Positions 19,497 through 57,440 of a DNA stretch of 64,000 bases are shown piece after piece (position 1 is the first letter of the stretch; the number at the start of each line of letters is the position of its first letter). The notes under the pieces were generated by a model, which was given only the letters and a program-made list of their open reading frames with translations, ran no database searches and was not told where the DNA came from. Origin of the DNA: Streptomyces sp. NBC_00557 (GTDB lineage Bacteria > Actinomycetota > Actinomycetes > Streptomycetales > Streptomycetaceae); contig NZ_CP107796.1 in assembly GCF_036345995.1 (NCBI RefSeq), forward strand, positions 1,984,001 through 2,048,000, written 5' to 3'. Both the position numbers and the translations under genes were made by a program.

Positions 19497-21065
19497 TCAG
19501 TCCAGGAACGCCGTCTCGATCCAGCGGCGTACCGCCCGCGGGCGCATCCGATGCAGCCGGTCCACGGTGTCGGCGACCTCCGGCGCGCCGCCCACCGACA
19601 GGAACTTCTCCCGCACCAGCTCGGCATGGCCCGCCCGGGTCTCCGGCCCGGCCGCGCCGATGGGAATCAGCCGGGTGCGCGAGACGGTACGGCCGTCCGT
19701 CAGCCGTACGGTCACCCGGGCCCCGGTCGCCTTGGTGGACCGGGAGAAGTCCCGGTCGTCCGCGGCCAACGCGCCCACCAGGTCGACCAGTTCGTCGCCG
19801 CCGAAGCCGCGCAGCCACGGCACGGCCAGCTCGCCCGCCTCCCGCACGGCCTCGCCGAACGGCGCGTCGGACAGGAACAGCTCGCGGGTCATCTCGGTGT
19901 CGTGCTCCAGTCGTATCCGCTTGGCCAGCGCCCAGCGGTCGGGGTCGTCCAGGTGCGGCGGGGAGAAGTCGTCCACGCCGAAGCCGCCGGTGAGCAGCGT
20001 GGTGGCGACCGGATAGGGCACGTCCAGGACCAGCGCGCCGAGCGGGGAGCCGGGGCCGGTGACATAGCGGGCGGCCCGCTCCCCCGCGAACAGCGTGTAC
20101 AGCGAGGCCTCCACCACCACCTCGGCCACGTCCCGCGGCCGGACGGGCCCGAGCTCCTTGTGGATCTCCGCCGCGCAGTCGACCGCCGCGTCGATGCCGG
20201 GGCCGCCCGGGTGCATCTTGAACGACAGCGTGTCGGTGTGCCAGCGGCGCCCGAGGCCCTTGGCCACCGCCTGCGGCAGCGGCACGGTGGCGAAGCGGGC
20301 CAGGAAGCCGTCGCTGTGCTCCATGATGTCCGGCGCCCCGCGCAGCCCGGCGTACGCCGCGTCGCAGGCGTCCATCGCGGTGCGCACCGGGGTGAAGGTG
20401 TTGAACAGACGGGCGTCGCTGGCCAGGAAGGCGCGCATCAGCGGCCAGTTGGGCATCGCGAAGGCCAGCCCGAAGGCGTTCTCGAACAGCGTGGCCGGCG
20501 CCCGGTCGCAGTGCAGCCGGCCGGCCACCGCGCCGGCCAGGTGGGTGTGCACGGCGCTCTGGCCGCGCAGCGGTCCGAGGGTCGCGGAGGCGGTGATCCG
20601 GGCCGCGCACTCGTTGGCCGCGACGACCGCGGTGAGCAGCGAGAGCCCGTCCAGCTGCCGGGCGTAGGCGAAGGCGAGCGGCACCGCGACCGTCGAGTTC
20701 GACAGGTGCCCGGCGTACGCGGTGTCGTCCAGGTTGAGCCAGGAGCCGAGCGCGGCGAAGACGCCGGCCGCCTGGCGCGGGTCGCGCTGCATGGGGTGCC
20801 CGAACGCGGCCACCAGCCTTCTGCCGAGCGGGTGCTGGAGGCCCGCGCGGATGGAGGCGATCTGGGACAGCACCTGGCTCGCGGCGAGCTTCAGCACCCG
20901 GCACGGGATGTGCTGGGGGCGCAGTGTCGCGGCCCAGTGCGACAGTTCGCGCAGCGGGGTGTCGGCGGGCGGGCGGCCGCGGGCGGCCCGCGGCAGGACG
21001 CTGCCCTGCTCGGCCCAGTCGGCGCACAGCGCCCGGGCGACGCTCTCCGCGAGGACGGCGGTCAT
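19497..21065 (-). CDS. MmgE/PrpD-family protein, VlmK-like eliminase candidate
   Basis: 522-aa member of the MmgE/PrpD superfamily (2-methylcitrate dehydratase fold). In valanimycin biosynthesis the MmgE/PrpD protein VlmK eliminates phosphate from phosphorylated valanimycin hydrate to make the dehydroalanine-type product. A diacylglycerol-kinase-like gene, the partner family of VlmJ, is two genes upstream in the same operon, which makes this reading attractive. Family features visible include the SNSTVAVPLAFAYARQL region, FENAFGLAFAMPNW and KMHPGGPGIDAAVD. I use the ATG at 21065 (MTAVLAESVAR) because AGGAAGG lies 8 nt upstream. A plain hydratase role cannot be excluded. Confidence 0.75.
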   Translation of the reverse strand: MTAVLAESVARALCADWAEQGSVLPRAARGRPPADTPLRELSHWAATLRPQHIPCRVLKLAASQVLSQIASIRAGLQHPLGRRLVAAFGHPMQRDPRQAAGVFAALGSWLNLDDTAYAGHLSNSTVAVPLAFAYARQLDGLSLLTAVVAANECAARITASATLGPLRGQSAVHTHLAGAVAGRLHCDRAPATLFENAFGLAFAMPNWPLMRAFLASDARLFNTFTPVRTAMDACDAAYAGLRGAPDIMEHSDGFLARFATVPLPQAVAKGLGRRWHTDTLSFKMHPGGPGIDAAVDCAAEIHKELGPVRPRDVAEVVVEASLYTLFAGERAARYVTGPGSPLGALVLDVPYPVATTLLTGGFGVDDFSPPHLDDPDRWALAKRIRLEHDTEMTRELFLSDAPFGEAVREAGELAVPWLRGFGGDELVDLVGALAADDRDFSRSTKATGARVTVRLTDGRTVSRTRLIPIGAAGPETRAGHAELVREKFLSVGGAPEVADTVDRLHRMRPRAVRRWIETAFLD

Positions 21066-21155
21066 GGCGGAAACCTTCCTGCTGCCTGGTGGTACGTCCG
21101 CGGACACGGCAACGGGAGCACCGGCGCCCCGGTGCTCCCGCCGTGAGAGAGGGTG

Positions 21156-21524
21156 TTACGCCGCCGGGACCTTGTCCAGGAAGCCGTAGATGCCCTTGAT
21201 CTTGCCGGCGTCGTCGGTGACGATCACGTCGAAGCCGATGGCGATCGGCTCGGCGCCCGGCTCGGTCACCAGGCCCCACTGGAAGCGGGCCTGGTTGTGG
21301 TGGGCGTCGACGGTGCCGTGCAGCTCGAAGCTGAGGCCCTTGAACTGGTCGCGGGCGCCGGCCACCACGGCCGCGAAGCCCTCGTGGCCCTCGACCGCGG
21401 CGAGCGGGTCGATGTACGGAGCGTCGGCGGTGAGCAGCTCGGCGATGGCCGCGGCGCGCTTGTCGGCGTCCGCCTCGTTCCAGATGGCGAGGTAGCGGTT
21501 GACGGTGGTGGTCAGGTCGCTCAT
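21156..21524 (-). CDS. SnoaL-like / NTF2-fold small protein
   Basis: 122-aa protein of the SnoaL-like (NTF2 fold) family; reads as a single alpha+beta domain with IDPLAAVEGHEGF and GFDVIVTDDAGKI. Members include small polyketide cyclases, isomerases and hydrolases, so the reaction cannot be assigned. ATG at 21524 follows AAGGAG at 9 nt. It sits between the kinase-like and MmgE/PrpD genes in one operon and may act on the same intermediate. Confidence 0.78.
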   Translation of the reverse strand: MSDLTTTVNRYLAIWNEADADKRAAAIAELLTADAPYIDPLAAVEGHEGFAAVVAGARDQFKGLSFELHGTVDAHHNQARFQWGLVTEPGAEPIAIGFDVIVTDDAGKIKGIYGFLDKVPAA

Positions 21525-21592: not shown

Positions 21593-22555
21593 TCAGGGGA
21601 GGGCCGGCGCCCAGACCGGGAGGGCTCCGGGGAGCACCTCGAAGGTGGCCCTGGCGCCGATGCCGTGCTGGTACTCGCCGTCGTGCTCCAGCGGGAGCCG
21701 GCCGCCGTCGGTGCGCTCGACGGTGATCGTGCGGCCACGGGCGTACACGGTCGCCGGATGGTCCATGTGCCGCGCGTCCAGCGTCAGTTCGGGCACCCGG
21801 CCGGCCGGGACGGCGCCGCCGATGACGCAGACGTCGAGCAGTCCGTCGTCGAGCAGCGAGTCGGGCAGCACCAGGAACCGGCCGCCGCGGTAGCGGCCGC
21901 CGCCGACGTTGGCGAGGACCGTGGGGCCCTCGTGCACCACCCGGCCGTCCACGGTGACCCGGCCGGGGTACGGCTCGTAGCCGGCGGCCGTGTCGGCGAA
22001 GGCGCGGGCGTAGCGCTCCCGGCCGGTCAGCGGCAGCTCCCTGGCCGTGATCAGCGCGTCGGCGATCACCCCGGAACAGGCGCCCAGGTACACCAGGTTG
22101 CGGGTCTCGGCGAGGCGGGCCAGGTCGAGGCGGCGCAGCCGGGCGCTGCCGCCGATGCCGTTGTCGGTCAGGACGGCTTTCAGGGACTCGCTCCAGGGGC
22201 GTTCGCCCCACAGCATCTTGTAGCCGGAGTTGCCGGTGCCACCGGGCACGACCGCGAGGGTGGCGTTCCCGGTCACGGGCACGAGTCCCTGGACGGCCTC
22301 CCGGACGGTGCCGTCCCCGCCGATGACGACGATCAGGTCCGGCGCCCCGGGCGCGGCCTGCGCGGGCCGCTGCAGGGCGCGGCGCACGGCGGCCGTGGCG
22401 TCCCCCGGTCCCGTGGTCAGGTGCACCTCCGTGTACTCCAGGCAGGAGGCGCACACCTGGCGTACCTCCTCGACCAGTTCGGGCGAGTGGCTGCCGGAGG
22501 CGGGGTTGCCCAGGACGAGCGCCCGGGTGGGAGCCGGGGCTGCGGTGTCTGCCAT
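21593..22555 (-). CDS. Diacylglycerol-kinase-family kinase, VlmJ-like
   Basis: 320-aa DAGK catalytic-domain protein with the nucleotide motif VVIGGDGTVREAV and the PGGTGNSGYK loop; the usual GTxND becomes GTGNS. In valanimycin biosynthesis the DAGK-like VlmJ phosphorylates the serine-derived hydroxyl of valanimycin hydrate before VlmK eliminates it. The co-occurrence of this gene with an MmgE/PrpD gene in one operon is the main support for that role here. A normal lipid kinase is the alternative. It leads the leftward operon driven by the repeat promoter at 22631-22674. Confidence 0.78.
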   Translation of the reverse strand: MADTAAPAPTRALVLGNPASGSHSPELVEEVRQVCASCLEYTEVHLTTGPGDATAAVRRALQRPAQAAPGAPDLIVVIGGDGTVREAVQGLVPVTGNATLAVVPGGTGNSGYKMLWGERPWSESLKAVLTDNGIGGSARLRRLDLARLAETRNLVYLGACSGVIADALITARELPLTGRERYARAFADTAAGYEPYPGRVTVDGRVVHEGPTVLANVGGGRYRGGRFLVLPDSLLDDGLLDVCVIGGAVPAGRVPELTLDARHMDHPATVYARGRTITVERTDGGRLPLEHDGEYQHGIGARATFEVLPGALPVWAPALP

Positions 22556-22790: not shown

Positions 22791-23660
22791 ATGACCACAC
22801 GGACGCGTCCGACCCTCGCCCTCCCTCGCTACACCTCGGAGTTCCGCCGGGAGGCCGCCCGATTAGCGCACGCGGCCCGCGGCATCCCGCCGGCCGAGCC
22901 GGTCCCGACGTGCCCCGGATGGACGCTCGCCGACCTGGTGCGGCACGTGCGGCAGGGCCACGACTGGGCGACCACGATCCTGACCAGCCGGAGCACCGGG
23001 TTCCTCCCGCCCGGCGGCCTGTCCGGCGCCCCGGAGGACGGCAGGAGCTGGACCGAGCGCGTGGCCGAGCTGGGCCTCCGGGGAGCGGCCGACGACCTCG
23101 CCGACCCGGGCCGGCGGGCGCGGTTCCTGGCCGAGGGCGCGCACCGGCTGGCCGAGGCGCTCGACGGGGTCGGTCCCGACGTGCCGCTGTGGGCGCCGCA
23201 CGGCCGGCAGGACAAGGAGTTCTGGCTGCGCTGGGCTCTGTACGAGACGGCCGTGCACCGGGCCGACGCGGCCCTGACGGCTGGCCTGCCGTTCGCGATG
23301 GAGACGGACGTCGCCCTGGACTGTGTCGACTTCTGCCTCAGCGCCTTCGGGGAACCGGCCGCCCGGCCGTTCCTCTCGCCCCGGTTCGCCGAGGTGCCGC
23401 GCAGCGGCGAGACGCTGGGTTTCCGCTCGGCCGGGGCGACCCCCGGCGGCCGCGGCGACTGGCTGGTCACGTGCGCGGCGGAGGGCGTACGTGTCGGCCG
23501 GGACGCACCGGCCGGCGACCCGGCCGACACCACCGTGATCGCCGCGCCCGCGGACCTGCTGCTGGTCGTCAAGGGGCGGCTGCGGCCGCGGAGCCCGCGG
23601 GTGACGGTGCTCGGGGACCGCGCCCTGCTGGACTTCTGGCTCAGCCACGCCGTCTCCTGA
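22791..23660 (+). CDS. Maleylpyruvate-isomerase-family mycothiol-dependent enzyme with a TTA codon
   Basis: 289-aa protein with an N-terminal DinB-like mycothiol-dependent maleylpyruvate isomerase (MDMPI) helical domain (about 10-170; VPTCPGWTLADLVRHV) and an MDMPI C-terminal domain (about 185-285). Such enzymes use mycothiol as cofactor or attach it to electrophiles. The product class predicted here may carry a dehydroalanine unit, so a detoxifying or self-resistance role is possible but unproved. Codon 25 (22863-22865) is TTA, the only in-frame TTA I found in the window's genes, which would make expression depend on the bldA tRNA. The ATG at 22791 has CGGAG about 10 nt upstream. Confidence 0.8.
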   Translation: MTTRTRPTLALPRYTSEFRREAARLAHAARGIPPAEPVPTCPGWTLADLVRHVRQGHDWATTILTSRSTGFLPPGGLSGAPEDGRSWTERVAELGLRGAADDLADPGRRARFLAEGAHRLAEALDGVGPDVPLWAPHGRQDKEFWLRWALYETAVHRADAALTAGLPFAMETDVALDCVDFCLSAFGEPAARPFLSPRFAEVPRSGETLGFRSAGATPGGRGDWLVTCAAEGVRVGRDAPAGDPADTTVIAAPADLLLVVKGRLRPRSPRVTVLGDRALLDFWLSHAVS

Positions 23661-25068: not shown

Positions 25069-26538
25069 TCAGGACGCCTCGGCCTTGCGCGGCAGCAGCT
25101 GCACCAGCAGCGCCACCGCCACGCAGATGGCCGCCTGCACCAGCAGGCCCGCGCCGAAGGCGTGGGAGTAGGAGTGGGCGGTGACCTTGTGGCCGGCGAC
25201 GCTGAAGAAGACGACGCCGATGACCGCGATGCCGACGGCGTTGCCCATCTCCTGGGCGGTGGAGAAGACACCGGAGGCGGCGGCCGCGTGGTGCGGGGCG
25301 ACGCCCTCCAGGACCAGCGAGGCGAGCGGGGCGACGACGAAGCCCATGCCGAAGCCGGCGAGCACCATGGCCGGGATGCACCAGGCGACGGAGCCGCTGC
25401 CGCCCAGCTCCCAGGCGGTGGCGGCGAGCGCGACGTTGCCGACCGCCTGCAGCAGCGCGCCGATGGTGAGGACCTGCTTGCCGAGCTTGGCCGCGACCTT
25501 CGGCGACTGGGCGGAGCCGATGAAGAAGCCGAGGCCGAGCGGGATGAACAGCAGACCCGACTCGAGGGCGGACAGGCCGCGGCCCTCCTGCAGGTACAGC
25601 GCGAGGACCAGGAAGAAGGAGGCCATCGCGGCGAAGAACACGAGCAGCGAGACGACGCCCACGCCGAAGGCGCGGTCCTCGAACAGGCTCGGGTGGACCA
25701 GCGGCGACTTGTCGCGGGCCGCCTTGCGGCGCTGGGTCCACCAGAACGCGGCCAGCAGCGGCACCGCCGCCACCAGGCACTCCCACGTCCAGGTCGGCCA
25801 GCCCTGCTCCCGGCCCTCGACCAGCGGCAGCACGACGGCGGCGAGTCCCGCGGTCACCAGGATCACGCCGGTCCAGTCGAGGCCGGTGTGGCCCTCGGCC
25901 CGGGACTCGGGCACCACCTTCGGCGTGAGCAGCAGCACCACCGCGCCGATCGGGGCGTTGATCAGGAAGATGGTCCGCCAGTCCCAGCCGAAGACGTCGG
26001 CCTTGATCAGCAGGCCGCCGATGAGCTGGCCGAACACGGCCGAGGCGCCCATGGTGATGCCGTAGGCGTTGAACGCGGCGACCCGGGCCTTGCCCGCGTA
26101 GGCCGTGGTCAGGATGCCGAGGACCTGCGGGATGACGAGGGCGGCCGCGGCGCCCTGCACCGCGCGGGCCACGATCAGCTCGGCCATGTTCGGGGCGATG
26201 CCGCAGGCCAGCGACGAGAGCGTGAACAGGGCCAGGCCGACGGAGAAGACCTTCCGGCGGCCGTAGAGGTCGCCGAGCCGGCCGCCGGTGATCAGCATGG
26301 CGGACAGGCCGATGTTGAAGGTCGCGGCGACGAGCTGGATCTCGGCGCTGGTCGCGTGCATGTTCCGCTGCAGCGACGGGATGGCCACGTTGACGATGAA
26401 GAAGTCGACGTTGGCGATGAAGAGACCGGCCAGCACGACCCAGAGCGCGCCCCAGGCGGGCTTGCCCGCGGCCTCCTCGATGTCCGGTGGCGAGGCGGCC
26501 GAGGCCGCGCTGCCGGTCAGTTCCGCTTCGGTGGTCAT
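25069..26538 (-). CDS. MFS drug exporter, DHA2 (14-helix) type
   Basis: 489-aa EmrB/QacA-type major facilitator with about 14 membrane helices. Helix-1/2 residues NVDFFIVNVAIP, the loop 2-3 motif GGRLGDLYGRR and the antiporter motif region ALVIPQVLGI are visible. Likely proton-driven export of, and self-resistance to, the cluster product; valanimycin producers carry an MFS resistance gene (VlmF). GGAGGGTCGTCC precedes the ATG. It has its own SARP-type promoter. Confidence 0.9.
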   Translation of the reverse strand: MTTEAELTGSAASAASPPDIEEAAGKPAWGALWVVLAGLFIANVDFFIVNVAIPSLQRNMHATSAEIQLVAATFNIGLSAMLITGGRLGDLYGRRKVFSVGLALFTLSSLACGIAPNMAELIVARAVQGAAAALVIPQVLGILTTAYAGKARVAAFNAYGITMGASAVFGQLIGGLLIKADVFGWDWRTIFLINAPIGAVVLLLTPKVVPESRAEGHTGLDWTGVILVTAGLAAVVLPLVEGREQGWPTWTWECLVAAVPLLAAFWWTQRRKAARDKSPLVHPSLFEDRAFGVGVVSLLVFFAAMASFFLVLALYLQEGRGLSALESGLLFIPLGLGFFIGSAQSPKVAAKLGKQVLTIGALLQAVGNVALAATAWELGGSGSVAWCIPAMVLAGFGMGFVVAPLASLVLEGVAPHHAAAASGVFSTAQEMGNAVGIAVIGVVFFSVAGHKVTAHSYSHAFGAGLLVQAAICVAVALLVQLLPRKAEAS

Positions 26539-26694: not shown

Positions 26695-27495
26695 TCAGCC
26701 CACGGCCGCGGCGGCCAGCCGCTGGAGCCGGTGCGCGAAGTGCGCGGTGACGGCCTGGGCGTGGGTGTCGATGTAGAAGTGGCCGCCCTCGTACTCGCTG
26801 TGGCCGAGATAGGCCGGGGTGCGGCCGGCCCAGTGGGTCATGGCGTCCGGGGCCTCCTGGAGCGGGTCGCTGCGGCCGCCGTAGGAGGCGAGCGGGCAGG
26901 TGACGCCCTTGCCGTCGTCCTCGTACTGGGCGGCGACCCGCAGATCGGCGCGCAGGGCGGGCACGACCAGGGCGAGCATCTCGGGGTTGTCGTAGATCTC
27001 GGCCGGGAAGGACCCCAACTTCTTGATCCACTCGACGAGTTCGGGCTCCGGCATCCGGCTCTGCTCCTCCGTCGGCTGGAAGAAGCCCTCGGGCGACCAG
27101 CCGGACATGCCGACCATGACCGGCGCCGGACCGCCCTCCTCCTGCATCCGGATGGCCAGCCGGAACGCCAGCTGGGCGCCGAGGCAGTGCCCGAAGAAGG
27201 CGAACGGCCGCTCGTCCAGGTCGTTCAGCACGGCCTCGTGCAGCGCGTCGAGCAGCGGCCAGAACTCCTCGTACGTGGGCTCGTCCCGGCGGTTGTGGCG
27301 GCCGGGCAGGGTGACGGCCTGCGGGGCGATGTCCGGCGGCAGCAGGCGCTCCCAGTCCCGGTAGATGATGGCGCCGCTGCCGGCGTGGGGCAGCAGGAAC
27401 AGCCGGATCGAGGCGTCGGGCGAGGGCTCCACGGGGTGGAACCAGTGGCCCTCGCTGGACATCCGGCTGCCTATGGTGCCGATCTCGGTGGTCAC
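26695..27495 (-). CDS. Type II thioesterase with a Cys nucleophile (GHCLG)
   Basis: 266-aa alpha/beta-hydrolase of the type II thioesterase family (TE II, GrsT/RifR-like), which frees acyl groups from carrier proteins. The nucleophile elbow reads FFGHCLGAQLAF, with Cys about 104 in place of the usual Ser; the Asp (YGGRSDP) and His (YEGGHFYID) of the triad are in place. A Cys nucleophile can favour thioester chemistry such as transfer or cyclisation over plain hydrolysis. The GTG start overlaps the LLM gene stop as GTGA, placing it last in the ACP-PKS-ligase-LLM-TE operon. Confidence 0.88.
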   Translation of the reverse strand: MTTEIGTIGSRMSSEGHWFHPVEPSPDASIRLFLLPHAGSGAIIYRDWERLLPPDIAPQAVTLPGRHNRRDEPTYEEFWPLLDALHEAVLNDLDERPFAFFGHCLGAQLAFRLAIRMQEEGGPAPVMVGMSGWSPEGFFQPTEEQSRMPEPELVEWIKKLGSFPAEIYDNPEMLALVVPALRADLRVAAQYEDDGKGVTCPLASYGGRSDPLQEAPDAMTHWAGRTPAYLGHSEYEGGHFYIDTHAQAVTAHFAHRLQRLAAAAVG

Positions 27496-28484
27496 GACTG
27501 CGTACTCCCAACGGTGGTGGACGGGCCGAGGGCGCGCACGGCGGGCAGCAGCACCTCGGCGATCTCCTTCAACTGCGGCTCGGGGTCCAGGGATCCGATC
27601 CGCAGGACCAGGTGCCGGGCGCCGGCCCGGACGTATCCGCCGAGCCACTCGGCGCACTTCTCGGCGCTGCCCCAGGCGTAGGCCTGGATGCTGCTCATCT
27701 GCTCCAGGGAGCGGCCGTAGTAGTGGCTGATGTAGTGCTCCAGTTCCGCCCTGGCGGCGGTTTCGTCGCTGTTCACGGTGACCGTGGCGTACAGCGCGGG
27801 GGTGACCGTGCGGCCGGCCTCGTCGGCGAGTTCGGCGATACGGCGGCGGGCGCGGGCGTAGGCGTCGACGTCCGGCAGGAACGGCAGCCAGCCGTCGTAC
27901 CGGGCCGCCGCGCGGGCCAGCACCCTGGGGGTGTCGCTGCCGGCGAGCCACAGGGGCGGGCCGCCGGGGACGGCGGGGCCGGGGAGCCGGTCCAGGTTCT
28001 CCGCCTGCCAGAACCTGCCCTGGAACTCGGTGGGTTCGCCCTCGTCGTGGGAGCGCCAGGCGGTGCGCCACAGCGCGGTGATCTCGTCCAGCCGTCCCAC
28101 CCGGCCCTGGAAGGAGGCGCCGACGGAGGCGAACTCCTCCTCGGTCTCGGCCATCGGGAACCCGGAGCCGAGCCCGAGGATGAGCCGGTCCGCGGCCACA
28201 TGGCTGAGGCTGGCGATCATGTTGGCGCCGATGAGGGGGTGGCGCAGGGCCGGGGTGAGGGCGGCGGTGCCGACGGTGATGCGGGTGGTGGCCGCCGCCG
28301 CGGCCGAGAGCACGACCAGGGGGTCGAGCCGGGGGCGGGCGGTGAGCGAGTCCCCGGCCCACAGCGAGTCGAAGCCGAGCGCTTCCGCCCGGCGGGCGAA
28401 GTCGAGCAGGGGCGCGGCGGCGTAGCTGCCGTTGATGGCCTGCTCGCGGGTGGGCAGGAGGATGCCGATCCGAAGTGAGGTCAC
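27492..28484 (-). CDS. LLM-class (luciferase-like, F420- or flavin-dependent) oxidoreductase
   Basis: 330-aa TIM-barrel protein of the luciferase-like family with VGTAALTPALRHP, RLILGLGSGFP and PLWLAGSDTPRVL. Actinobacterial members of this shape mostly use F420, some FMN; the substrate cannot be read from sequence. It starts with a GTG overlapping the ligase stop and ends overlapping the thioesterase start, so it is tightly co-translated with PKS-associated genes. It could reduce an alkene or ketone, or oxidise an intermediate. Confidence 0.8.
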   Translation of the reverse strand: MTSLRIGILLPTREQAINGSYAAAPLLDFARRAEALGFDSLWAGDSLTARPRLDPLVVLSAAAAATTRITVGTAALTPALRHPLIGANMIASLSHVAADRLILGLGSGFPMAETEEEFASVGASFQGRVGRLDEITALWRTAWRSHDEGEPTEFQGRFWQAENLDRLPGPAVPGGPPLWLAGSDTPRVLARAAARYDGWLPFLPDVDAYARARRRIAELADEAGRTVTPALYATVTVNSDETAARAELEHYISHYYGRSLEQMSSIQAYAWGSAEKCAEWLGGYVRAGARHLVLRIGSLDPEPQLKEIAEVLLPAVRALGPSTTVGSTQS

Positions 28485-41499: not shown

Positions 41500-42041
41500 C
41501 CACCGCCACGGATGTACGGCGCCCGGTCCGGCAGGACCCGGCCGAGCGCCGGCGCGCCCTGTACCACCTGGCCTCCCCGGTGTCGGTGCTGACCACCGGC
41601 CCCGAGGAGCGGATGCACGGCACGACGGCCAGCACGGTCACCCTCGTCTCGCGCGAGCCGCTGCTGGTCGGGGTCGTGCTGCGGGCGGGCTCGTCCTTCG
41701 CCCGGCTGGCGGCCGCCGAGGGCCGGTTCGCGATCAACGTGCTCGGCGGCGAACAGGCCGACGTGGCACGCCGGTTCGCGGACAGCTCCCGGCCCGACGG
41801 CGACGCGGCCTTCACGGGCCTGGCCTGGACGGCGGACCGGTACGCGCACGCCCCGCTGATCGCGGGCGCGCTCGCCCACTACGTCTGCCGCTTCCACTCC
41901 GCGCACGCGGCGGGCGACAGCGAGCTGCTGCTCGGCCACGTCGTGCGGGCCACGGCGGACGACGGGCCGCCGCTGCTCTCTTACGCCGGCGGGCTGTACG
42001 CCGGCTCCCTGCGTCCGGCGAAGGAGGCCGCCGCGTCATGA
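41496..42041 (+). CDS. Flavin reductase (VlmR-like)
   Basis: 181-aa flavin-reductase-like split-barrel protein with HGTTASTVTLVSREPLLVGV and FAINVLGGEQADVARRFA. It would use NAD(P)H to supply free reduced flavin to the VlmH-like monooxygenase in the same operon, as VlmR does in valanimycin. The ATG overlaps the previous stop as ATGA, and its own stop overlaps the next start, so the block is translationally coupled. Confidence 0.88.
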   Translation: MTTATDVRRPVRQDPAERRRALYHLASPVSVLTTGPEERMHGTTASTVTLVSREPLLVGVVLRAGSSFARLAAAEGRFAINVLGGEQADVARRFADSSRPDGDAAFTGLAWTADRYAHAPLIAGALAHYVCRFHSAHAAGDSELLLGHVVRATADDGPPLLSYAGGLYAGSLRPAKEAAAS

Positions 42042-44101: not shown

Positions 44102-44332
44102 ATGCTGGAGCAGCTCAAGGAAATCCTGTCCAACAAGCTCAAGGTGTCGCCCGAGGCCATCACCCCGGAGGCCACCCGGGAGGACATCGAGCTGGACTCG
44201 CTGGCCGTGGTGGAGCTGTCGCTGCTGCTGAAGTCCGAGCTGGACCTGGACATCAGTGACGACGACCTCCTGGAGGCCGAGACCGTGGCCGACATGGTCC
44301 GGCTCATGGAGGAGCGGAGCGCGACGGTCTGA
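44102..44332 (+). CDS. Discrete acyl carrier protein
   Basis: 76-aa ACP of fatty-acid type with the phosphopantetheine Ser in ELDSLAVVEL, acidic helix II and a standard length. It follows an AAAGGAA ribosome site and shares TGATG with the next gene, so ACP and FabF-like KS are co-translated. Likely carrier for the dedicated acyl chain. Confidence 0.92.
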   Translation: MLEQLKEILSNKLKVSPEAITPEATREDIELDSLAVVELSLLLKSELDLDISDDDLLEAETVADMVRLMEERSATV

Positions 44333-49061: not shown

Positions 49062-49829
49062 TCAGGCGCCCATCATGTGCACCCCGCCGTCCACGTGGAC
49101 GATCTCGCCGGTGGTGCGCGGGAAGAAGTCGGACAGCAGGGCGACCACGCCGCGGGCGGCCGGTTCGGGGTCGGTGAGGTCCCAGCCGGCCGGGGCGCGG
49201 CCGGTGGTCCACACGTCGGCCAGCTCCGGGAAGCCGGGGATGGACTTGGCGGCCATGGAGCGCAGCGGGCCGGCCGCGATCAGGTTGCACCGGATGCCGT
49301 GCCCGCCGAGGTCGCGGGCGAGGTAGCGGCTGGTGGACTCCAGGGCGGCCTTGGCGACGCCCATCCAGTCGTAGTGCGGCCAGGCCACGCTCGCGTCGAA
49401 GGTGAGGCCGACGACCGAGCCGCCGCGCCGCTGAAGCAGCGGCAGGCAGGCGGTGGTGAGCGACTTCAGGGAGTACGCCGAGACGTGCACGGCCGTCGCC
49501 ACGTCGGCCCAGGTGCCGTCGAGGAAGGAGAAGGCGCCCTGGGGGCCGTAGGCGATGGAGTGCACGACGCCGTCGAGGGAGTCGGTGTGGGCGCCGATCC
49601 GGTCGGCGAGGGTGTCCAGGTGGCCCTGGTCGGTGACGTCCAGTTCGATGACGGGGGCGGGCTTCGGCAGCTTGCCCGCGAACCGCTCGATCAGGGAGAG
49701 CCGGCCGAAGCCGGTGAGCAGCACCTCGGCGCCCTCCTCCTGGGCGATCCGGGCGACGTGGAAGGCGATGGAGGCGTCCGTGACCACCCCGGTGACCAGG
49801 ATCCGCTTGCCGGCGAGGATGCCGCTCAT
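49062..49829 (-). CDS. FabI/InhA-like enoyl-ACP reductase
   Basis: 255-aa short-chain-dehydrogenase-fold enoyl reductase: VTGVVTDASIAFHVARIAQE at the NADH site, VHSIAYGPQGAF, and the Tyr-x6-Lys catalytic pair in YDWMGVAKAAL, all InhA/FabI features. It would reduce the enoyl-ACP in the dedicated acyl-chain pathway, or saturate a conjugated alkene in a tailoring step. The ATG overlaps the ferredoxin stop (ATGA). It is last in the desaturase-MFS-ferredoxin-FabI leftward run. Confidence 0.88.
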   Translation of the reverse strand: MSGILAGKRILVTGVVTDASIAFHVARIAQEEGAEVLLTGFGRLSLIERFAGKLPKPAPVIELDVTDQGHLDTLADRIGAHTDSLDGVVHSIAYGPQGAFSFLDGTWADVATAVHVSAYSLKSLTTACLPLLQRRGGSVVGLTFDASVAWPHYDWMGVAKAALESTSRYLARDLGGHGIRCNLIAAGPLRSMAAKSIPGFPELADVWTTGRAPAGWDLTDPEPAARGVVALLSDFFPRTTGEIVHVDGGVHMMGA

Positions 49830-50155
49830 GCCGCCGGCACCCCCTTGGGCAGCGCGCTGACCAGCGCCGAGTCGTGGTCCTGGGGGCCGAGGGCGCTGCC
49901 GCCGCCGGGCGAGCCGAGGTCCGCGAAGAAGCCGGCGTTGGAGGCCGCGTGGTCGCCGCCCCACTCCTCGGGCAGGTCGTCCTCGAAGTAGATGGCGTCG
50001 ACCGGGCACACCGGTTCGCAGGCGCCGCAGTCCACGCATTCCTCCGGATGGATGTACAGGGCGCGGCGGCCCTCGTAGATGCAGTCCACGGGGCATTCGT
50101 CGATGCAGGAGCGGTCCTTGACGTCGACGCAGGGCAGTCCGATGACGTAGGCCAT
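49826..50155 (-). CDS. Seven-iron ferredoxin (3Fe-4S/4Fe-4S)
   Basis: 109-aa ferredoxin with two cluster motifs: CVDVKDRSCIDECPVDC and CVDCGACEPVCPVDA, followed by an Ala/Gly-rich tail, as in actinobacterial FdxA. Likely electron donor for the cluster's P450, desaturase or diiron enzyme. I start at the ATG at 50155 (MAYVIG), with AAGGAG 6 nt upstream. It overlaps the FabI-like gene. Confidence 0.93.
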   Translation of the reverse strand: MAYVIGLPCVDVKDRSCIDECPVDCIYEGRRALYIHPEECVDCGACEPVCPVDAIYFEDDLPEEWGGDHAASNAGFFADLGSPGGGSALGPQDHDSALVSALPKGVPAA

Positions 50156-50183: not shown

Positions 50184-51551
50184 TCAGTCGACCGGGGTGC
50201 CGGTGGTGCGCTCGCCCAGGGTCAGCACGGTGAGCGCGAGGACGGCCATGGCGGCGGCGATCACGGCGAACAGGGCGCCGGGGCCGTCGGCGTCGAGGAC
50301 CGGCAGCAGGACGAACGGCAGCGCGCCGGCGCTGAGTTTGGACAGCGAGTAGGCGGCGCCGGCGGCGGTGGCCCGGATCGCGGTGGGGTACTGCTCGGAC
50401 AGGTAGACATGGGAGACGCTGGAGAAGACGTTGCTGAAGAGGGTGTAGGCGAAGCCGCAGACCACGATCAGCTCCGCCGAGCCCGCGTACGCGAAGCCGA
50501 GTCCGGCCGCGACCATCGCGGCCGCCGACAGGGCGATCAGGGTGCGGCGCTCGACGCGGTCCACGACGGGCAGGGCGAGAGCGGAGCCCACCGGGTAGCC
50601 GAGGAAGGACAGCGCGGTGAAGCCGAGGCCGGCGACGATGCCGTAGCCCTTGGCGGCGACGATCTGCGGGGCGAGCGTGCCGAAGCCGTAGTAGCCGACG
50701 ACCGAGAGCACGCAGAACAGCCACAGGACCAGGGTGCGGCGGCGGAGGCCGGGACGCAGGATCTCGCGCAGCCGGGTGCCGTCCCCCGGAGTCTCGGCCC
50801 GGGGCGCGGGCCGGTCCGGCAGCAGGCCCCGGCTCGCCGCCTCCGCCTCCATGCGCGACACCAGCCTGTCGGCCTCGCCGGTGCGGCCGCGCGCGGCGAG
50901 CCAGCGCGGGGACTCGATCAGGCCCCGGCGCAGGATCCACACCACGGCCGAGCCGAGGGCGCCGAGGACGAACAGCCAGCGCCAGCCGGCCACGCCGAGC
51001 GGGGTGCGCGGCACCAGCCACAGGGCCGCGAAGCCGACCGCGGGGACCCCGCAGAAGGCGAGGGTGTAGGCCCGGGCGATGAACCGGCCGCGCTTGCCGG
51101 CGGGCAGCACGTCGGCCAGGTAGCAGTCGGCGAGGGCCTGTTCGGCGCCGATGCCGAGGCCGGCGACGAAGCGGGTCGCGATCAGCCAGGCGGCGTTCGG
51201 CGAGAGGGCGCCGAGCAGGGACGCCACCGAGTAGACGGCCAGGTTGAGCTGGAAGGCCCGGCGCCGGCCGAACCGGTCCGCGATCCGGCCGAGCGTCAGG
51301 GACCCGAGGAACTGGCCGAAGAACGCGGAGGCCAGGACGAGCTTGAGCGAGGACGCGCCGAAGCCGAAGTCGCTCTGCAGCACCTTGCCGATGGTGCCGG
51401 ACAGGTTGTTCTCGAAGGTGTCGAAGAACAGGCCGACGCCGACGACGGCGGTGAGTCTGCGGTGCAGCGGGGTGATCGGCAGCCGGTCCAGGCGGGCGCC
51501 GATCGGGGCGGGAGCGGTGAGGCCGCCCGCCGCCGCGGTGGTCTGGGACAT
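50184..51551 (-). CDS. MFS transporter, sugar-porter/AAHS-like 12-helix type
   Basis: 455-aa major facilitator with 12 predicted helices, the loop 2-3 motif GRIADRFGRRRAF, RFVAGLGIGAEQ in helix 4 and a central cytoplasmic loop (ESPRWLAARGR). It belongs to the group with metabolite:H+ symporters and some exporters, unlike the DHA2 exporter at 25 kb. Could import a precursor or export product. AAGGAG precedes the ATG. The 173-bp gap upstream contains a low-complexity GTG/GGGG-rich run (51643-51698) and no cluster-type promoter, so it is probably read from the desaturase promoter. Confidence 0.85.
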   Translation of the reverse strand: MSQTTAAAGGLTAPAPIGARLDRLPITPLHRRLTAVVGVGLFFDTFENNLSGTIGKVLQSDFGFGASSLKLVLASAFFGQFLGSLTLGRIADRFGRRRAFQLNLAVYSVASLLGALSPNAAWLIATRFVAGLGIGAEQALADCYLADVLPAGKRGRFIARAYTLAFCGVPAVGFAALWLVPRTPLGVAGWRWLFVLGALGSAVVWILRRGLIESPRWLAARGRTGEADRLVSRMEAEAASRGLLPDRPAPRAETPGDGTRLREILRPGLRRRTLVLWLFCVLSVVGYYGFGTLAPQIVAAKGYGIVAGLGFTALSFLGYPVGSALALPVVDRVERRTLIALSAAAMVAAGLGFAYAGSAELIVVCGFAYTLFSNVFSSVSHVYLSEQYPTAIRATAAGAAYSLSKLSAGALPFVLLPVLDADGPGALFAVIAAAMAVLALTVLTLGERTTGTPVD

Positions 51552-51724: not shown

Positions 51725-52825
51725 TCAGACGGATTCCATGGCCCGGCGCCGGATCTGCTCCTCCACGTCACCGCGGCGGACCGGGGCGCTGACCTCGTGG
51801 AGGAAGGAGGCGACCTCGCGGTACGAGGCCCAGAAGCCGACCTCGTGGTAGGGCACTCCGCGTTCGGCGCAGTACTGCATGGTCAGTTCGCGGGCGCGCG
51901 GCAGGTTCTTCTGCGGCATGGCCGGGAACAGGTGGTGCTCCACCTGGTAGTTGAGGCCGCCGTAGAGGAAGTCGACCAGCCGGCCGGGCCGGATGTTGCG
52001 GGAGGTGAGGACCTGGCGCTCCAGCCAGTCCAGGGTCTCCTCCTCGCCGTCGCGCACCTGCATGCCCTTGTGGTTCGGGGCGAAGATCATGCCGAAGTAG
52101 ACGCCGAGGGAGGCGTGCTGGACGACGATGAACGCGACCGCGAGCGCCGGGGACAGGACGGTGAAGACGCAGGTGAGATAGACGGCGGCGCGCAGCAGGA
52201 TGAGGAAGGTCTCCAGCACGGGCCGCTTGGTCTTGCCGGTGACGATGGACTTGACCGCGGTCTTGAGCATCTTGAAGCCCTCGAGGACCAGCAGCACGAA
52301 GAACAGCACGCTCTGGTAGCGCACGACGAGCTTCTGGGTGCCCTTGCGGGTGGGGTACTGCTTGATGTCGAAGATGGCGGTGCGCCGGCCGATGTCCGGG
52401 TCCATGTCGAGGTGGTTGGGGTTGCTGTGGTGCCGGTTGTGGTGGTTGACCCACCAGCCGTAGCTCACCCCGTTGACCAGGTTGGCGTGGATGTAGCCGA
52501 CCGCGGAGGCCGCCTTCTTGCTGCGGAACATCGCCTTGTGGCCGGCGTCGTGCCACATGAACGCCGACTGGCCGCCGCACAGGCCCATCCACAGGGCCGT
52601 GACGAGCTGCCACCAGGTGTCGCCCAGCTCGAAGAAGGCGGCGAAGCCGATCAGCAGCAGGGTGGTGTTGAGGGCGAGCTTGCCCACGTAGTAGCGCGGG
52701 TCGAGGTCGAGCAGGCCTTCGGCCCTGACCCGTTTGAGCAGTTCGGCGAAGGTCGCCGAGGCGCCGGGGCGCGGGGCGGCCTCGGAGGCCGGGACCCCGG
52801 CCGTCTGGATGTGCGGACGCTGCAT
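51725..52825 (-). CDS. Membrane fatty-acid desaturase
   Basis: 366-aa acyl-lipid/acyl-CoA desaturase with all three His boxes: HDAGH (92-96), HNRHH (129-133) and QVEHH (near 293), four membrane helices, and no fused cytochrome b5. It would use oxygen and ferredoxin electrons to place a double bond in the alkyl chain. Several azoxy antibiotics (elaiomycin, maniwamycin types) have an alkene next to the azoxy nitrogen, so it could make that alkene. AAGGAG lies 8 nt before the ATG. It has a SARP-type promoter about 190 bp upstream. Confidence 0.92.
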   Translation of the reverse strand: MQRPHIQTAGVPASEAAPRPGASATFAELLKRVRAEGLLDLDPRYYVGKLALNTTLLLIGFAAFFELGDTWWQLVTALWMGLCGGQSAFMWHDAGHKAMFRSKKAASAVGYIHANLVNGVSYGWWVNHHNRHHSNPNHLDMDPDIGRRTAIFDIKQYPTRKGTQKLVVRYQSVLFFVLLVLEGFKMLKTAVKSIVTGKTKRPVLETFLILLRAAVYLTCVFTVLSPALAVAFIVVQHASLGVYFGMIFAPNHKGMQVRDGEEETLDWLERQVLTSRNIRPGRLVDFLYGGLNYQVEHHLFPAMPQKNLPRARELTMQYCAERGVPYHEVGFWASYREVASFLHEVSAPVRRGDVEEQIRRRAMESV

Positions 52826-53247: not shown

Positions 53248-54255
53248 TCAGAAGGCGTTGCAGGCACGGAAGACGTGCGCGAACCCGGGCAGCGAGGCCT
53301 GCGGGCCGTCGAAGGCGACGTACTCGGGGATGGTCACGTCGGGCGCCCACTTCTGCTTGTACGACAGCTGGGTCTGGGCCGGGTACAGCGCCGCGCCCTC
53401 GGCCCACAGGGCGTGCATCAGCCACTGGAACGCGGCGCTGTGCCCGTCGAGTTCCTGGGCGGCGTCGAGCCCGGTGAACGGCGTGAACCCGAAGTGCAGC
53501 CACTCGACGCCCTCGGCCCGGAACACCTCGATGGCGTGCGCGTTGATGGCCTCCATGAGGCCGGGAGAGCCCTCGGGGATGCGGCGGCTGAGGTCGTGCA
53601 TCCAGCCGGCCCGGCTGCCGTACACCGGCGAGTAGGAGATGTACGCGACCGGGGCGCCGTCGATGGTGCCGACGAACAGCCGGCGGTGGGCCTGGGCGGC
53701 GCCGCCGATCTGGCCGACGAGGAACTCCAGTTGCTGGGCGCCGCCCTTGGAGCCGAGCCAGGCCCGGTCGATGGTCGCGATGGCCTCGCCCACGTCGGCC
53801 GCGTCGGCCTCGTGGATCGTCAGGCCGTTGCGGTGGGCTCGGGAGATCTTGTTGCGCAGCTGCATGAACTTGGTGCCGCGCAGGGTGAACCCGTCGAGGC
53901 TCACGGCCCAGGAGGCGCCGACCTGGTTGACGGTGAAGCCGCGCCCGGCGTAGCGCTCGGCGTCCGTGCGCTGCAGCTGGACGCCGACGAGGTTCAGGCC
54001 CTCGGCCCGGACGTGGGCGCGGAAGGCGTCCAGCAGGGTGCCGTAGTCCTCCTCGGCGGCGAAGGGGCCGCCGAACTGCACGGCCCAGCGGCCGGTGCGC
54101 CGGTAGACGACGACACCGTCCGCGCCCGGCACGGTGAAGACGCTGTTTCCGCTGTTGAGCGCCAGGAAGGAACTCGGGTTCTCGCTCGCGGTGTGCCGGC
54201 GTATCGCGTCGAGAATCCGGTCGTGGGTGGTGGTTTCGGTGGTGGTGGCGGTCAT
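53248..54255 (-). CDS. Aminoacyl-tRNA-dependent transferase (LPG-synthase C-domain-like), VlmA-like
   Basis: 335-aa protein of the DUF2156 / lysylphosphatidylglycerol-synthase C-terminal type with two GNAT-like lobes: GADGVVVYRRTGRWAVQFGG in the first, LRNKISRAHRNGLTI at the junction, and YISYSPVYGSRAGWMHDLSR then EGSPGLMEAINAHAI in the second. No membrane domain is attached. Such proteins take the aminoacyl group from tRNA; VlmA transfers serine from Ser-tRNA to an alkyl-hydroxylamine. A pathway SerRS in the cluster strongly supports the same job here. The ATG at 54255 follows AAAGGGG at 6 nt. Confidence 0.82.
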   Translation of the reverse strand: MTATTTETTTHDRILDAIRRHTASENPSSFLALNSGNSVFTVPGADGVVVYRRTGRWAVQFGGPFAAEEDYGTLLDAFRAHVRAEGLNLVGVQLQRTDAERYAGRGFTVNQVGASWAVSLDGFTLRGTKFMQLRNKISRAHRNGLTIHEADAADVGEAIATIDRAWLGSKGGAQQLEFLVGQIGGAAQAHRRLFVGTIDGAPVAYISYSPVYGSRAGWMHDLSRRIPEGSPGLMEAINAHAIEVFRAEGVEWLHFGFTPFTGLDAAQELDGHSAAFQWLMHALWAEGAALYPAQTQLSYKQKWAPDVTIPEYVAFDGPQASLPGFAHVFRACNAF

Positions 54256-54357
54256 TCCGTACCCCTTTCGGGAGCCTTTCACGGCAAGGGAGTTCCGAAG
54301 GGAGTACAGCACCGCCGGGATGTCCGGGAAAAGGGCGGATGGAAATTCCTTTGCCTG

Positions 54358-54751: not shown

Positions 54752-55537
54752 ATGCTGAGGTTCTCCGTTCTCGGGCCACTGCAGATACGCACCGACGCGG
54801 GTCCGGCGGACGTGCCGGGCGATCTTCAGCGGATCCTGGTGCAGACGCTGCTGGTGAGTGAGGGCCGGCCGGTCTCCGGGGAGAGCCTGGCCGAGGAGAT
54901 GTGGGGCGAGGCCGCGCCCGACAACCAGGCCAACGCGCTGCAGGCGCACATCAGCCGGCTGCGCCGCCGGCTGCGGGCGCTGGAGCCGGGGCGGCCGGTG
55001 TCGCGGGTGACGATCCATCCGGCCGGCTACCGGCTCTGGCTGGGCGAAGGGGAGCTGGACGCCGCGGAGTTCGTGCGGGCCGTGCGGCTTGCCGAGTCCG
55101 CGCCCCCGGGCGATGCCGGGCGCACCGCGCGGCTGCTCGGGGACGCGCTGGCGCTGTGGCGCGGGCCCGTCTTCGGCGGGTTCCCCGGCGGGACCCTGTG
55201 CCAGCTGGCGGGCGCCCGCTACGAGGAGTACCGGATGCGGGCACTGGAGCTGCTCTTCGACGCCGAGCTGCGGCTCGGCCACCATGCGGCGGTGCTCGCC
55301 GAACTGGCCGAGGCGCACACCAACCACCCGTTGCGGGAGCGGTTCTGCGAACAGCTGATGATCGCGCTGTACGGTGCCGGACGGCAGGCCGACGCCCTCG
55401 ACGTCTTCCACCGGATGCGGCGCCGGCTCGACGACGAACTCGGCATCCAGCCCTCCCCCGCGCTGCGCCGGATCGAGAGCGCGATCCTCTCCCACGACCC
55501 GGCCCTCAGCGGCGACCGCCTCCTCCAACCCGCCTGA
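54752..55537 (+). CDS. SARP-family pathway activator (AfsR/BTAD type)
   Basis: 261-aa small SARP: OmpR-type winged-helix DNA-binding domain (about 10-95; NALQAHISRLRRRLRALEPG) and a bacterial transcriptional activation (BTAD) domain (about 100-250; FCEQLMIALYGAGRQADALDVFHRMRRRLDDELGI). No ATPase or TPR extension. Valanimycin also has a SARP activator (VlmI). The cluster contains nine promoter sites with 11-bp-period direct repeats, the kind of site SARPs bind, including one upstream of this gene, so autoregulation is likely. AGGGGG precedes the ATG at 54752; no TTA codon seen in it. Confidence 0.92.
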   Translation: MLRFSVLGPLQIRTDAGPADVPGDLQRILVQTLLVSEGRPVSGESLAEEMWGEAAPDNQANALQAHISRLRRRLRALEPGRPVSRVTIHPAGYRLWLGEGELDAAEFVRAVRLAESAPPGDAGRTARLLGDALALWRGPVFGGFPGGTLCQLAGARYEEYRMRALELLFDAELRLGHHAAVLAELAEAHTNHPLRERFCEQLMIALYGAGRQADALDVFHRMRRRLDDELGIQPSPALRRIESAILSHDPALSGDRLLQPA

Positions 55538-55556
55538 ACGGAACGGTGGTTGAGTG

Positions 55557-55649: not shown

Positions 55650-57194
55650 ATGAAGTCCCAGGTCGCGGAACTGGCCCGACTGCGCGAACGCGTACTCGCC
55701 GGCCCCGGCGAGAAGGCGACGGCCGCCCAGCGGGCCAAGGGCAAGCTCACCGTGCGCGAACGGATCGGCCTGCTGCTCGACGAGGGCTCGTTCCACGAGG
55801 TCGAGCCGCTGCGCCGGCACCGGGCGACCGGGTTCGGCCTGGAGGCGAAGAAGCCGTACACCGACGGCGTCGTCACCGGCTGGGGCACGGTCGAGGGCCG
55901 TACGGTCTTCGTCTACGCGCACGACTTCCGGATCTTCGGCGGGGCGCTGGGCGAGGCCCACGCCGCCAAGATCCACAAGATCATGGACATGGCCCTCGCG
56001 GCCGGCGCGCCGCTGGTGTCGCTCAACGACGGCGCCGGCGCCCGCATCCAGGAGGGCGTGACCGCGCTCGCCGGGTACGGCGGCATCTTCCGCCGCAACA
56101 CGGCGGCGTCCGGGGTGATTCCGCAGATCAGCGTGATGCTGGGCCCGTGCGCGGGCGGCGCCGCGTACTCGCCCGCCCTCACCGACTTCGTGTTCATGGT
56201 GCGCGAGACCTCGCAGATGTTCATCACCGGCCCGGACGTGGTCAAGGCGGTGACCGGCGAGGAGATCACCCAGAACGGGCTGGGCGGCGCCGACGTCCAC
56301 GCCGAGACCAGCGGGGTGTGCCACTTCGCGTACGACGACGAGGAGACCTGCCTGGAGGAGGTCCGGTACCTGCTGTCCCTCCTCCCCCGCAACAACCGCG
56401 AGACCCCGCCCGCCGTGCCCTGCGACGACCCGCCGGACCGGCGCTGCGAGTCGCTCGCGGAGCTGGTGCCGGCCGACGGCAACCGGCCGTACGACATGGC
56501 CAGGGTGATCGAGGAGATCGTCGACGACGGCGAGTACCTGGAGGTGCACCAGCGCTGGGCGCGGAACATCATCTGCGCGCTGGCCCGGCTGGACGGGCAG
56601 GTCGTCGGGATCGTCGCCAACCAGCCGCAGACCCTGGCCGGCGTGCTGGACATCGAGGCGAGCGAAAAGGCCGCGCGGTTCGTCCAGTTGTGCGACGCGT
56701 TCAGCATCCCGATCGTCACCCTGCTCGACGTGCCCGGCTTCCTGCCCGGTGTCGGCCAGGAGCACGGCGGCATCATCCGGCACGGCGCCAAGCTGCTGTA
56801 CGCCTACTGCGACGCCACCGTGCCCCGTATCTCGCTGATCCTTCGCAAGGCCTACGGCGGCGCGTACATCGTCATGGACTCGCAGTCCATCGGCGCCGAC
56901 CTCACCTACGCCTGGCCGACGAACGAGATCGCGGTGATGGGCGCGGAGGGCGCCGCGAACGTCATCTTCCGGCGGCAGATCGCCGAGGCCGACGATCCCG
57001 AGGCCCGGCGGGCGGAGCTGGTCAAGGAGTACAAGGCCGAGCTGATGCACCCGTACTACGCCGCCGAACGCGGCCTGGTCGACGACGTCATCGACCCGGC
57101 CGACACCCGTGCCGTCCTCATCGGCGCGCTGGCGATGCTGCGCACCAAGCACGCCGAGCGACCGGCGCGCAAGCACGGCAATCCCCCGCAGTGA
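55650..57194 (+). CDS. Acyl-CoA carboxylase beta (carboxyltransferase) subunit
   Basis: 514-aa carboxyltransferase of the AccB/PccB type. The N half has NDGAGARIQEGV and GPCAGGAAYSPAL, the C half DVPGFLPGVGQEHGGIIRHG and KAYGGAYIVMDS. The residue after GGAY, known to steer substrate choice (Asp in propionyl-, Ile in acetyl-type subunits of S. coelicolor), is Ile here, pointing to acetyl-CoA or broad use and hence malonyl-CoA supply for the KS and PKS enzymes. The biotinylated alpha subunit must come from elsewhere. SARP-type promoter directly upstream. Confidence 0.92.
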   Translation: MKSQVAELARLRERVLAGPGEKATAAQRAKGKLTVRERIGLLLDEGSFHEVEPLRRHRATGFGLEAKKPYTDGVVTGWGTVEGRTVFVYAHDFRIFGGALGEAHAAKIHKIMDMALAAGAPLVSLNDGAGARIQEGVTALAGYGGIFRRNTAASGVIPQISVMLGPCAGGAAYSPALTDFVFMVRETSQMFITGPDVVKAVTGEEITQNGLGGADVHAETSGVCHFAYDDEETCLEEVRYLLSLLPRNNRETPPAVPCDDPPDRRCESLAELVPADGNRPYDMARVIEEIVDDGEYLEVHQRWARNIICALARLDGQVVGIVANQPQTLAGVLDIEASEKAARFVQLCDAFSIPIVTLLDVPGFLPGVGQEHGGIIRHGAKLLYAYCDATVPRISLILRKAYGGAYIVMDSQSIGADLTYAWPTNEIAVMGAEGAANVIFRRQIAEADDPEARRAELVKEYKAELMHPYYAAERGLVDDVIDPADTRAVLIGALAMLRTKHAERPARKHGNPPQ

Positions 57195-57230
57195 TCCTGC
57201 TCGGTTCCCGCACCCCCGACGGAGGTTCCC

Positions 57231-57440
57231 ATGCCCGTGTCCCCCACGTCCCCCGCATCGCCCACCGCCCCGATCCGGGTCGAGAAGGGCCAGGCCACCG
57301 AGGAGGAGCTGGCCGCCCTCGCGGTGCTGCTGCTGAGCCGCGGCGCCCTGGCCGCCCCCGACACCGCGCCGGTCTCCCCCGGCACCACGTGCTGGCGCCC
57401 GCACGCCTTCCACGCGCCGCACAGCTGGCAGCGCGCCTGA
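57231..57440 (+). CDS. Acyl-CoA carboxylase epsilon subunit
   Basis: 69-aa protein with the epsilon-subunit pattern IRVEKGQATEEELAALAVLL and C-terminal PHSW. In actinobacterial carboxylases this small subunit stabilises the alpha-beta complex and raises activity. It lies 36 bp after the beta-subunit gene with GGAGG before its ATG. It is the last gene that clearly belongs to the SARP regulon. Confidence 0.85.
   Translation: MPVSPTSPASPTAPIRVEKGQATEEELAALAVLLLSRGALAAPDTAPVSPGTTCWRPHAFHAPHSWQRA

Follow-up and report, generated by a model that had tools for sequence, protein, structure and literature searches.

Gene content of the locus

The window analyzed here is a 64-kb stretch (72.3% G+C) of the 9.02-Mb, two-contig genome of Streptomyces sp. 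NBC_00557 (positions 1,984,001 to 2,048,000 of contig NZ_CP107796.1). Between positions 19,497 and 57,440 it carries a set of genes that, in all likelihood, constitutes a single cluster for the biosynthesis of an aliphatic azoxy compound derived from serine, built along the scheme proposed below. Codon-based gene calling placed 32 genes in this region, all of which were scanned against Pfam (Table 1). An earlier note on this DNA had proposed a cluster with valanimycin logic, and the families it named were recovered at the positions it gave. Besides these, the region contains genes for a START-like protein, an amino-acid permease, a cytochrome P450 and a SnoaL-like protein, and those for the thioesterase, the luciferase-like enzyme and the acyl ligase (26695-30082) were likewise absent from the earlier list. 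Since this set of genes recurs in relatives, its occurrence goes beyond chance.

Table 1. Genes of the azoxy cluster region, with window positions and the basis of assignment
Feature	Position	Strand	Basis and remarks
VlmK-like MmgE/PrpD eliminase	19497..21065	-	Pfam PF03972/PF19305
SnoaL-like protein	21156..21524	-	PF12680
VlmJ-like diacylglycerol kinase (DAGK)-fold kinase	21593..22555	-	PF00781/PF19279; GGDGT in translation
Mycothiol-dependent isomerase-like protein, probably accessory	22791..23660	+	PF11716; 3/30 close relatives
Cytochrome P450	23717..24910	-	PF00067; 14/30 close relatives
Major facilitator superfamily (MFS) transporter	25069..26538	-	PF07690
Thioesterase, Cys at the usual Ser place (GHCLGA)	26695..27495	-	PF00975
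Luciferase-like flavin/F420 oxidoreductase	27492..28484	-	PF00296
Acyl-AMP ligase	28481..30082	-	PF00501; NCBIfam PRK06187 above cut-off
Single-module polyketide synthase (PKS), KS-AT(malonyl)-DH(degenerate)-ER remnant-KR-ACP	30115..35778	-	Pfam; motifs across relatives
Discrete acyl carrier protein (ACP) adjoining PKS	35790..36089	-	PF00550
Aldehyde dehydrogenase (ALDH)-fold enzyme, proposed acyl thioester to aldehyde	36300..37883	+	PF00171
VlmH-like N-hydroxylase, acyl-CoA-dehydrogenase fold	37913..39055	+	Weak acyl-CoA dehydrogenase Pfam matches; PDB matches DszC and related flavoproteins
Class III aminotransferase	39168..40463	+	PF00202
START/polyketide-cyclase-fold protein	40466..40948	+	PF03364
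VlmO-like membrane hydrazine synthase, 176 aa	40969..41499	+	No Pfam match; D51, H82, H110, D114
VlmR-like flavin reductase	41496..42041	+	PF01613
VlmB-like ferritin-fold diiron oxygenase	42038..43018	+	AurF-like Pfam score below cut-off; PDB 6d9f/8wvr
FabH-like ketosynthase III	43015..44022	+	PF08541/PF08545; NCBIfam PRK09352
Discrete ACP	44102..44332	+	PF00550
FabF-like ketosynthase II	44332..45552	+	PF00109; NCBIfam PRK07314
Amino-acid permease, possibly serine supply	45655..47124	+	PF13520; 10/30 close loci
Second seryl-tRNA synthetase (SerRS), VlmL-like	47117..48394	+	TIGR00414 above cut-off
FabI-type enoyl-ACP reductase	49062..49829	-	PRK07889 above cut-off
Ferredoxin	49826..50155	-	PF00037
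MFS/sugar-porter family transporter	50184..51551	-	PF00083, PF07690
Fatty-acid desaturase, proposed 1,2-alkene beside azoxy group	51725..52825	-	PF00487
DUF2267 piece, 49 aa	53068..53217	-	PF10025, below cut-off
VlmA-like aminoacyl-tRNA:hydroxylamine transferase (LPG_synthase_C, alias DUF2156)	53248..54312	-	PF09924
SARP regulator	54752..55537	+	PF03704
Acyl-CoA carboxyltransferase, membership less sure	55650..57194	+	PF01039
Carboxylase epsilon subunit, membership less sure	57231..57440	+	PF13822

Distribution in related genomes

A VlmO gene was found in 82 of the 392 genus genomes searched, including the genome under study. From the 84 VlmO places outside this genome, 70 were taken as relatives and divided into 30 close loci, covered by up to 20 kb on each side, and 40 distant loci, covered by at most 20 kb in all; absence near the edge of such a stretch is a weak observation. 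ALDH, aminotransferase, START-like and VlmO genes were matched in all 30 close loci, VlmH and VlmB in 29, VlmA in 28, VlmR in 24 and SerRS in 21, and FabH and the discrete ACP in 29-30. Among the 40 distant loci, all had VlmO, 39 each had VlmA and VlmH, 36 the START-like gene, 35 the aminotransferase, 26 VlmR, 24 VlmB and 18 ALDH, followed by FabH (8), the discrete ACP of the cluster (3) and SerRS (2). The aminotransferase is therefore nearly general, and ALDH, FabH and ACP mark the kin of the window.

The azoxy core

According to a review (PMC11705231), VlmO makes a hydrazine and requires D51, H82, H110 and D114, after which VlmB oxidizes the hydrazine to azo and azoxy products. The VlmO-like protein of the window has these four residues at the residue numbers of VlmO itself. 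In an alignment of 149 rows (the window, the 30 close loci, the 40 distant ones and a further 78 from named records; some of the named records are contigs already present among the others, and the rows are not all independent), D51 and H82 were invariant in all 148 rows covering them, as were H110 and D114 in 149 of 149. Its structure model consists of four long helices, at low confidence (pLDDT 65.7). Moreover, the VlmB-like protein matched PDB entries 6d9f/8wvr, annotated as 'Putative VlmB homolog', over residues 1-318 with an E value of 4e-121, and E114, H117, E212 and H215, which form its two ExxH motifs, were found in 97% or more of 124 rows. VlmH- and VlmR-type genes adjoin the VlmO and VlmB genes, and a VlmA and VlmH pair is present together with VlmR, assigned at the level of family and synteny. 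Together, these sequence features give the azoxy core strong support. The valanimycin logic put forward in the earlier note found support in the VlmO residues, the structure-database match of VlmB, the SerRS phylogeny described below, and synteny.

As VlmO alone makes a hydrazine, by the same review, the end product might be a hydrazine or hydrazide and not an azoxy compound. The VlmB-like oxygenase, which retains both ExxH motifs and is encoded directly after VlmO and VlmR, speaks against such an end product, which we regard as very improbable.

Predicted serine activation and transfer

The genome holds three SerRS genes, and the origin of the copy in the cluster was addressed in a tree of 24 sequences, for which the root was drawn at the midpoint only. 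The cluster SerRS of eight genomes, including the window, formed a 99/98 clade together with one extra copy of genome G093, and 13 housekeeping-type SerRS, one from each of 13 genomes and including the copy at 4.17 Mb in the genome under study, formed a separate 100/100 group. The third own copy, at 5.64 Mb, grouped with a copy of genome G364 that has an internal stop. A housekeeping origin of the cluster SerRS, which the earlier note had named as an outcome against its proposal, is thereby rejected, since the copy falls outside the housekeeping clade. For the VlmA-like (DUF2156) gene the same question was approached by identity, without a tree: the paralogues in its own genome are only 22-24% identical, and because of this distance a housekeeping origin appears unlikely.

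A second copy of SerRS or FabI could also serve as a resistant target and have no part in biosynthesis. Both genes do have paralogues elsewhere in the genome, and the FabI protein is 69% identical to the other FabI; the cluster SerRS, however, is deeply diverged, is located in the azoxy cluster in eight of the genomes in the tree, and has a precedent in VlmL of valanimycin biosynthesis (PMC9379638). Target protection is on the whole an improbable explanation. The cluster copies of both FabI and the carboxyltransferase could have either a supply or a spare-target role.

Two of the SerRS copies outside the cluster have neighborhoods of their own. Close to the third, diverged copy of the genome under study (L268, at about 5.64 Mb; 8858-10159, 11963-13201) are genes for a tRNA synthetase of class II D/K/N type and for a beta-lactamase-fold protein. 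The second cluster-type SerRS of G093 (L269, 9730-10995; 58%) has genes for AdoMet synthetase and a histidine phosphatase as its neighbors, and perhaps belongs to another tRNA-dependent pathway. In the 20 kb around these two genes no other called gene matched window proteins at the cut-offs used, and ten of the remaining genes were scanned against Pfam.

Proposed amine supply

The earlier note had stated that a valine decarboxylase is replaced by an ALDH-fold enzyme plus a class III aminotransferase, and in gene content this was borne out: both genes are present, and the Pfam scan gave no decarboxylase match among the 32 cluster genes. C307 and E274 of the ALDH are present in 97% or more of 120 rows, and the His residues of the desaturase are conserved over 62 rows. 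For azodyrecin, a dehydrogenase and a transaminase have been proposed to provide the fatty amine (PMC9379638), and the amine arm of the present cluster is supported by gene content and this precedent.

A plausible contrast in amine source is offered by the distant locus L172, in which the same core stands beside a gene for a 600-aa pyridoxal-dependent decarboxylase, placed after VlmB and a permease in a valanimycin-like layout. ALDH, aminotransferase and START-like genes were not found in the 14.5 kb of L172 examined, of which the contig starts 3.9 kb to the left of VlmO, with anything beyond unseen. Four distant loci (L172, L175, L176 and L177) lack ALDH, aminotransferase and the START-like gene together, and because all three are absent jointly, the START-like gene seems to go with the aldehyde/amine arm and not with the N-N bond. 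In L211 a weak START-like match (35%) occurs without an aminotransferase. As the contrast is carried by few lineages, the association is a lead and not a proof. A permease homologue is found beside VlmB in L172 and in L175-L177.

Locus L175 (5304-6395, 14724-19081) has VlmA, VlmH, VlmO, VlmR, VlmB and SerRS genes beside a gene for a PF14518 heme-oxygenase-like iron enzyme, as well as phosphopantetheinyl transferase, AAT-like, GNAT and acyl ligase genes, and the genes of L177 are similar in size and order (the Pfam scan covered L175 only). No ALDH or aminotransferase match was obtained in L175 or L177, nor was a decarboxylase found among the seven non-core L175 genes scanned.

The polyketide synthase block

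The PKS consists of one module, in which the KS, malonyl-type AT, KR and ACP motifs are intact and an ER remnant is left. The catalytic His of the DH domain is replaced in 49 of 58 rows (by Leu in 38, Phe in 7, Tyr in 3 and Ser in 1); 8 rows retain it, and the remaining row has a gap there. In the nearby thioesterase, the nucleophile is Cys in 23 of 30 aligned rows and Ser in 7. A family-level search for the ligase in six genomes gave generic acyl ligases only, besides that of the window itself, and was not used as evidence.

Matches to the PKS were found in 22 of the 30 close loci and in 1 of the 40 distant ones, and its absence from many loci with an azoxy core would agree with two neighboring clusters, the PKS operon (23.7-36.1 kb) being unrelated to the azoxy genes. 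The distribution of the PKS argues against this. It occurred without an aminotransferase in no examined locus, it lies less than 3 kb from ALDH, on the opposite strand, in 18 of the 23 loci that have both, and a 99/98 branch of the 71-row VlmO tree has all 24 PKS loci, including the window, on one side. We regard two separate clusters as improbable. The same 37-row side of the tree also contains 9 loci with an aminotransferase and no PKS and 4 with neither, and because the PKS label needs six changes on this tree, the PKS appears to have been gained or lost repeatedly.

The PKS was also considered as the source of the amine, and this was judged unlikely: among the 65 examined loci with an aminotransferase, 23 had a PKS match and 42 had none, for which reason the PKS is better seen as an add-on. 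As loci without it keep the amine arm, the serine side is the most likely place of action of the PKS.

VlmJ, VlmK and the proposed late steps

The VlmJ and VlmK pair is present at the family level, as in the valanimycin cluster, and the translation of the VlmJ-like kinase carries the GGDGT motif. A strong VlmK match was obtained in 12 of 13 cluster genomes searched as a whole. In 10 of them it lay no more than 25 kb from VlmO on the contig they share, and in 2 on another contig; the whole-genome search of the remaining one, G379, did not find VlmK.

The strongest competing explanation is a product of the KA57-A (azx) type, in which the serine hydroxyl would be kept, a PKS unit would give the secondary alcohol, and VlmJ/VlmK would have another function or act on a side product. 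This scheme agrees with the one favored here except in the late steps. Both KA57-A and elaiomycin contain a secondary alcohol. In PMC6662830 the azx cluster of Streptomyces rochei (SRO_1819-1850; 36,010 bp) appears under the label 'azoxyalkene and type I PKS', and KA57-A was assigned to it by comparison with the valanimycin cluster. Its VlmO, VlmB and a VlmA correspond to SRO_1835, 1837 and 1850 (PMC9379638), i.e., genes 17, 19 and 32 of 32, and in the window they are genes 16, 18 and 29 of the 29 between 19,497 and 54,312. As reported, the two clusters are alike in azoxy core, type I PKS, size and gene spacing, and such a likeness of gene counts is weak evidence. S. rochei was neither among the 78 named loci nor among the names, printed in shortened form, of the best 120 matches of each protein search. 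Against this type of product stand the VlmJ/VlmK pair of the window and the retention of VlmK in relatives. A KA57-A-type product is a distinct possibility, to which we give somewhat less weight than to its contrary.

Relation to known clusters

With the valanimycin clusters of Streptomyces viridifaciens and Kitasatospora setae the locus shares VlmH, VlmR, VlmA, VlmO, VlmB, VlmJ, VlmK and SerRS-type genes and the serine-tRNA chemistry, as judged without reference alignment. The amine of valanimycin is isobutylamine from valine, reportedly released by the pyridoxal phosphate-dependent decarboxylase VlmD, whereas the window has ALDH and aminotransferase genes, a fatty-acid arm, a desaturase and the PKS block. 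The azodyrecin cluster (ady/azd) has in common with it the dehydrogenase, aminotransferase, VlmH/R/A/O/B and desaturase genes, but ady contains a methyltransferase and no aminoacyl-tRNA synthetase, alanyl-tRNA has been proposed as its substrate and no PKS is mentioned, in contrast to the SerRS, VlmJ/VlmK and PKS genes of the window. Pfam gave no methyltransferase family match among the 32 cluster genes, including the SAM methyltransferase type of Ady1 (PF04072), and this result and the presence of SerRS rule out membership of the azodyrecin type.

A 2022 survey reported 179 VlmA/VlmH pairs in 3,146 actinobacterial genomes, with VlmJ/VlmK, SerRS and FabH-like genes frequent near VlmA homologues (PMC9379638). 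Considered with the 82 VlmO-bearing genomes found here, this means that the kind of cluster is known and common. The machinery is familiar within the genus, and here, together with a small polyketide module, it very probably serves to link a fatty amine and serine by a rare N-N (azoxy) bond. Among the papers listed by searches of open-licence literature, none tied a product to a cluster with all these parts, which is not proof of novelty.

Proposed pathway

In the scheme that we favor, FabH, ACP and FabF, with FabI, would build a medium or long acyl chain, which the ALDH-fold enzyme would convert to the aldehyde and the class III aminotransferase to the fatty amine. VlmH and VlmR would hydroxylate the amine, the cluster SerRS would charge tRNA, and the VlmA-like enzyme would move serine onto the hydroxylamine oxygen. 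The resulting ester would be rearranged to a hydrazine by VlmO and oxidized to azo and azoxy forms by VlmB, and the desaturase may set an alkene beside the azoxy group. As in valanimycin biosynthesis, VlmJ and VlmK would phosphorylate and then eliminate the serine hydroxyl. Next, the acyl ligase and the free ACP, together with the single PKS module, could extend the serine-derived acid by one malonyl unit, with KR active and DH degenerate, and the P450 and luciferase-like enzyme would take part in tailoring.

This interpretation is supported at the level of the pathway class. The family and the core chemistry are strongly supported by sequence comparison; the order of the late steps and the role of the PKS, as well as chain length and product, are what we infer from the scheme. 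Several observations weigh against its general form. The scheme is not universal, as ALDH, FabH, ACP and SerRS were matched in 18, 8, 3 and 2 of the 40 distant loci, respectively, and SerRS in 21 of the 30 close ones; VlmB was unmatched in 16 of the 40 distant loci, and VlmR had no match at 45% identity in 6 of the 27 relatives with good coverage. Ordinary oxidizing ALDHs carry both Cys and Glu, and the cluster enzyme retains both, so that its role in reduction stays putative. Finally, VlmJ/VlmK and the PKS are separable, since in G379 a homologue of the PKS lies 8.4 kb from ALDH and VlmK is missing, and for this reason the order proposed for the VlmJ/VlmK and PKS steps is a guess.

A more specific hybrid can be pictured, in which a valanimycin-style azoxy-acrylate formed from the fatty amine and serine is the starter of the PKS, and the START-fold protein is devoted to handling the aldehyde, amine or hydroxylamine of the long chain. 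The result would be an azoxy scaffold not described before; we consider it unlikely, though not negligibly so. Few azoxy natural products are known although their genes are common, and the cluster makes the action of a PKS module on azoxy-serine or azoxy-acrylate directly testable. The same applies to the role of the START-fold protein, which accompanies the aldehyde/amine arm and was not seen in the decarboxylase-type relative.

Cluster boundaries and adjoining genes

The cluster is complete and well bounded, and it represents a widespread subtype. At the right edge, the carboxyltransferase was matched in 13 of the 30 close loci and the epsilon subunit in 12. The genes beyond the carboxyltransferase (57532 and 58493) were matched in 7 of these 13 loci; of the other six, three extend over 4.7 kb past the carboxyltransferase and contain neither gene, and in the remaining three the sequence stops after at most about 1 kb. 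From this pattern the carboxyltransferase and the epsilon subunit are less sure members. Paralogues of the carboxyltransferase in the same genome are 88, 88, 79 and 58% identical. The left edge is less firmly tested, as some examined stretches stop close to VlmK: VlmK lay within the examined stretch in 14 of the 30 close loci, and the adjoining GntR gene (18,475) was matched in 1 of these 14. Outside the cluster, the gene at 11881-13410 of the window encodes a helix-turn-helix domain fused to an EPSP-synthase-type domain.

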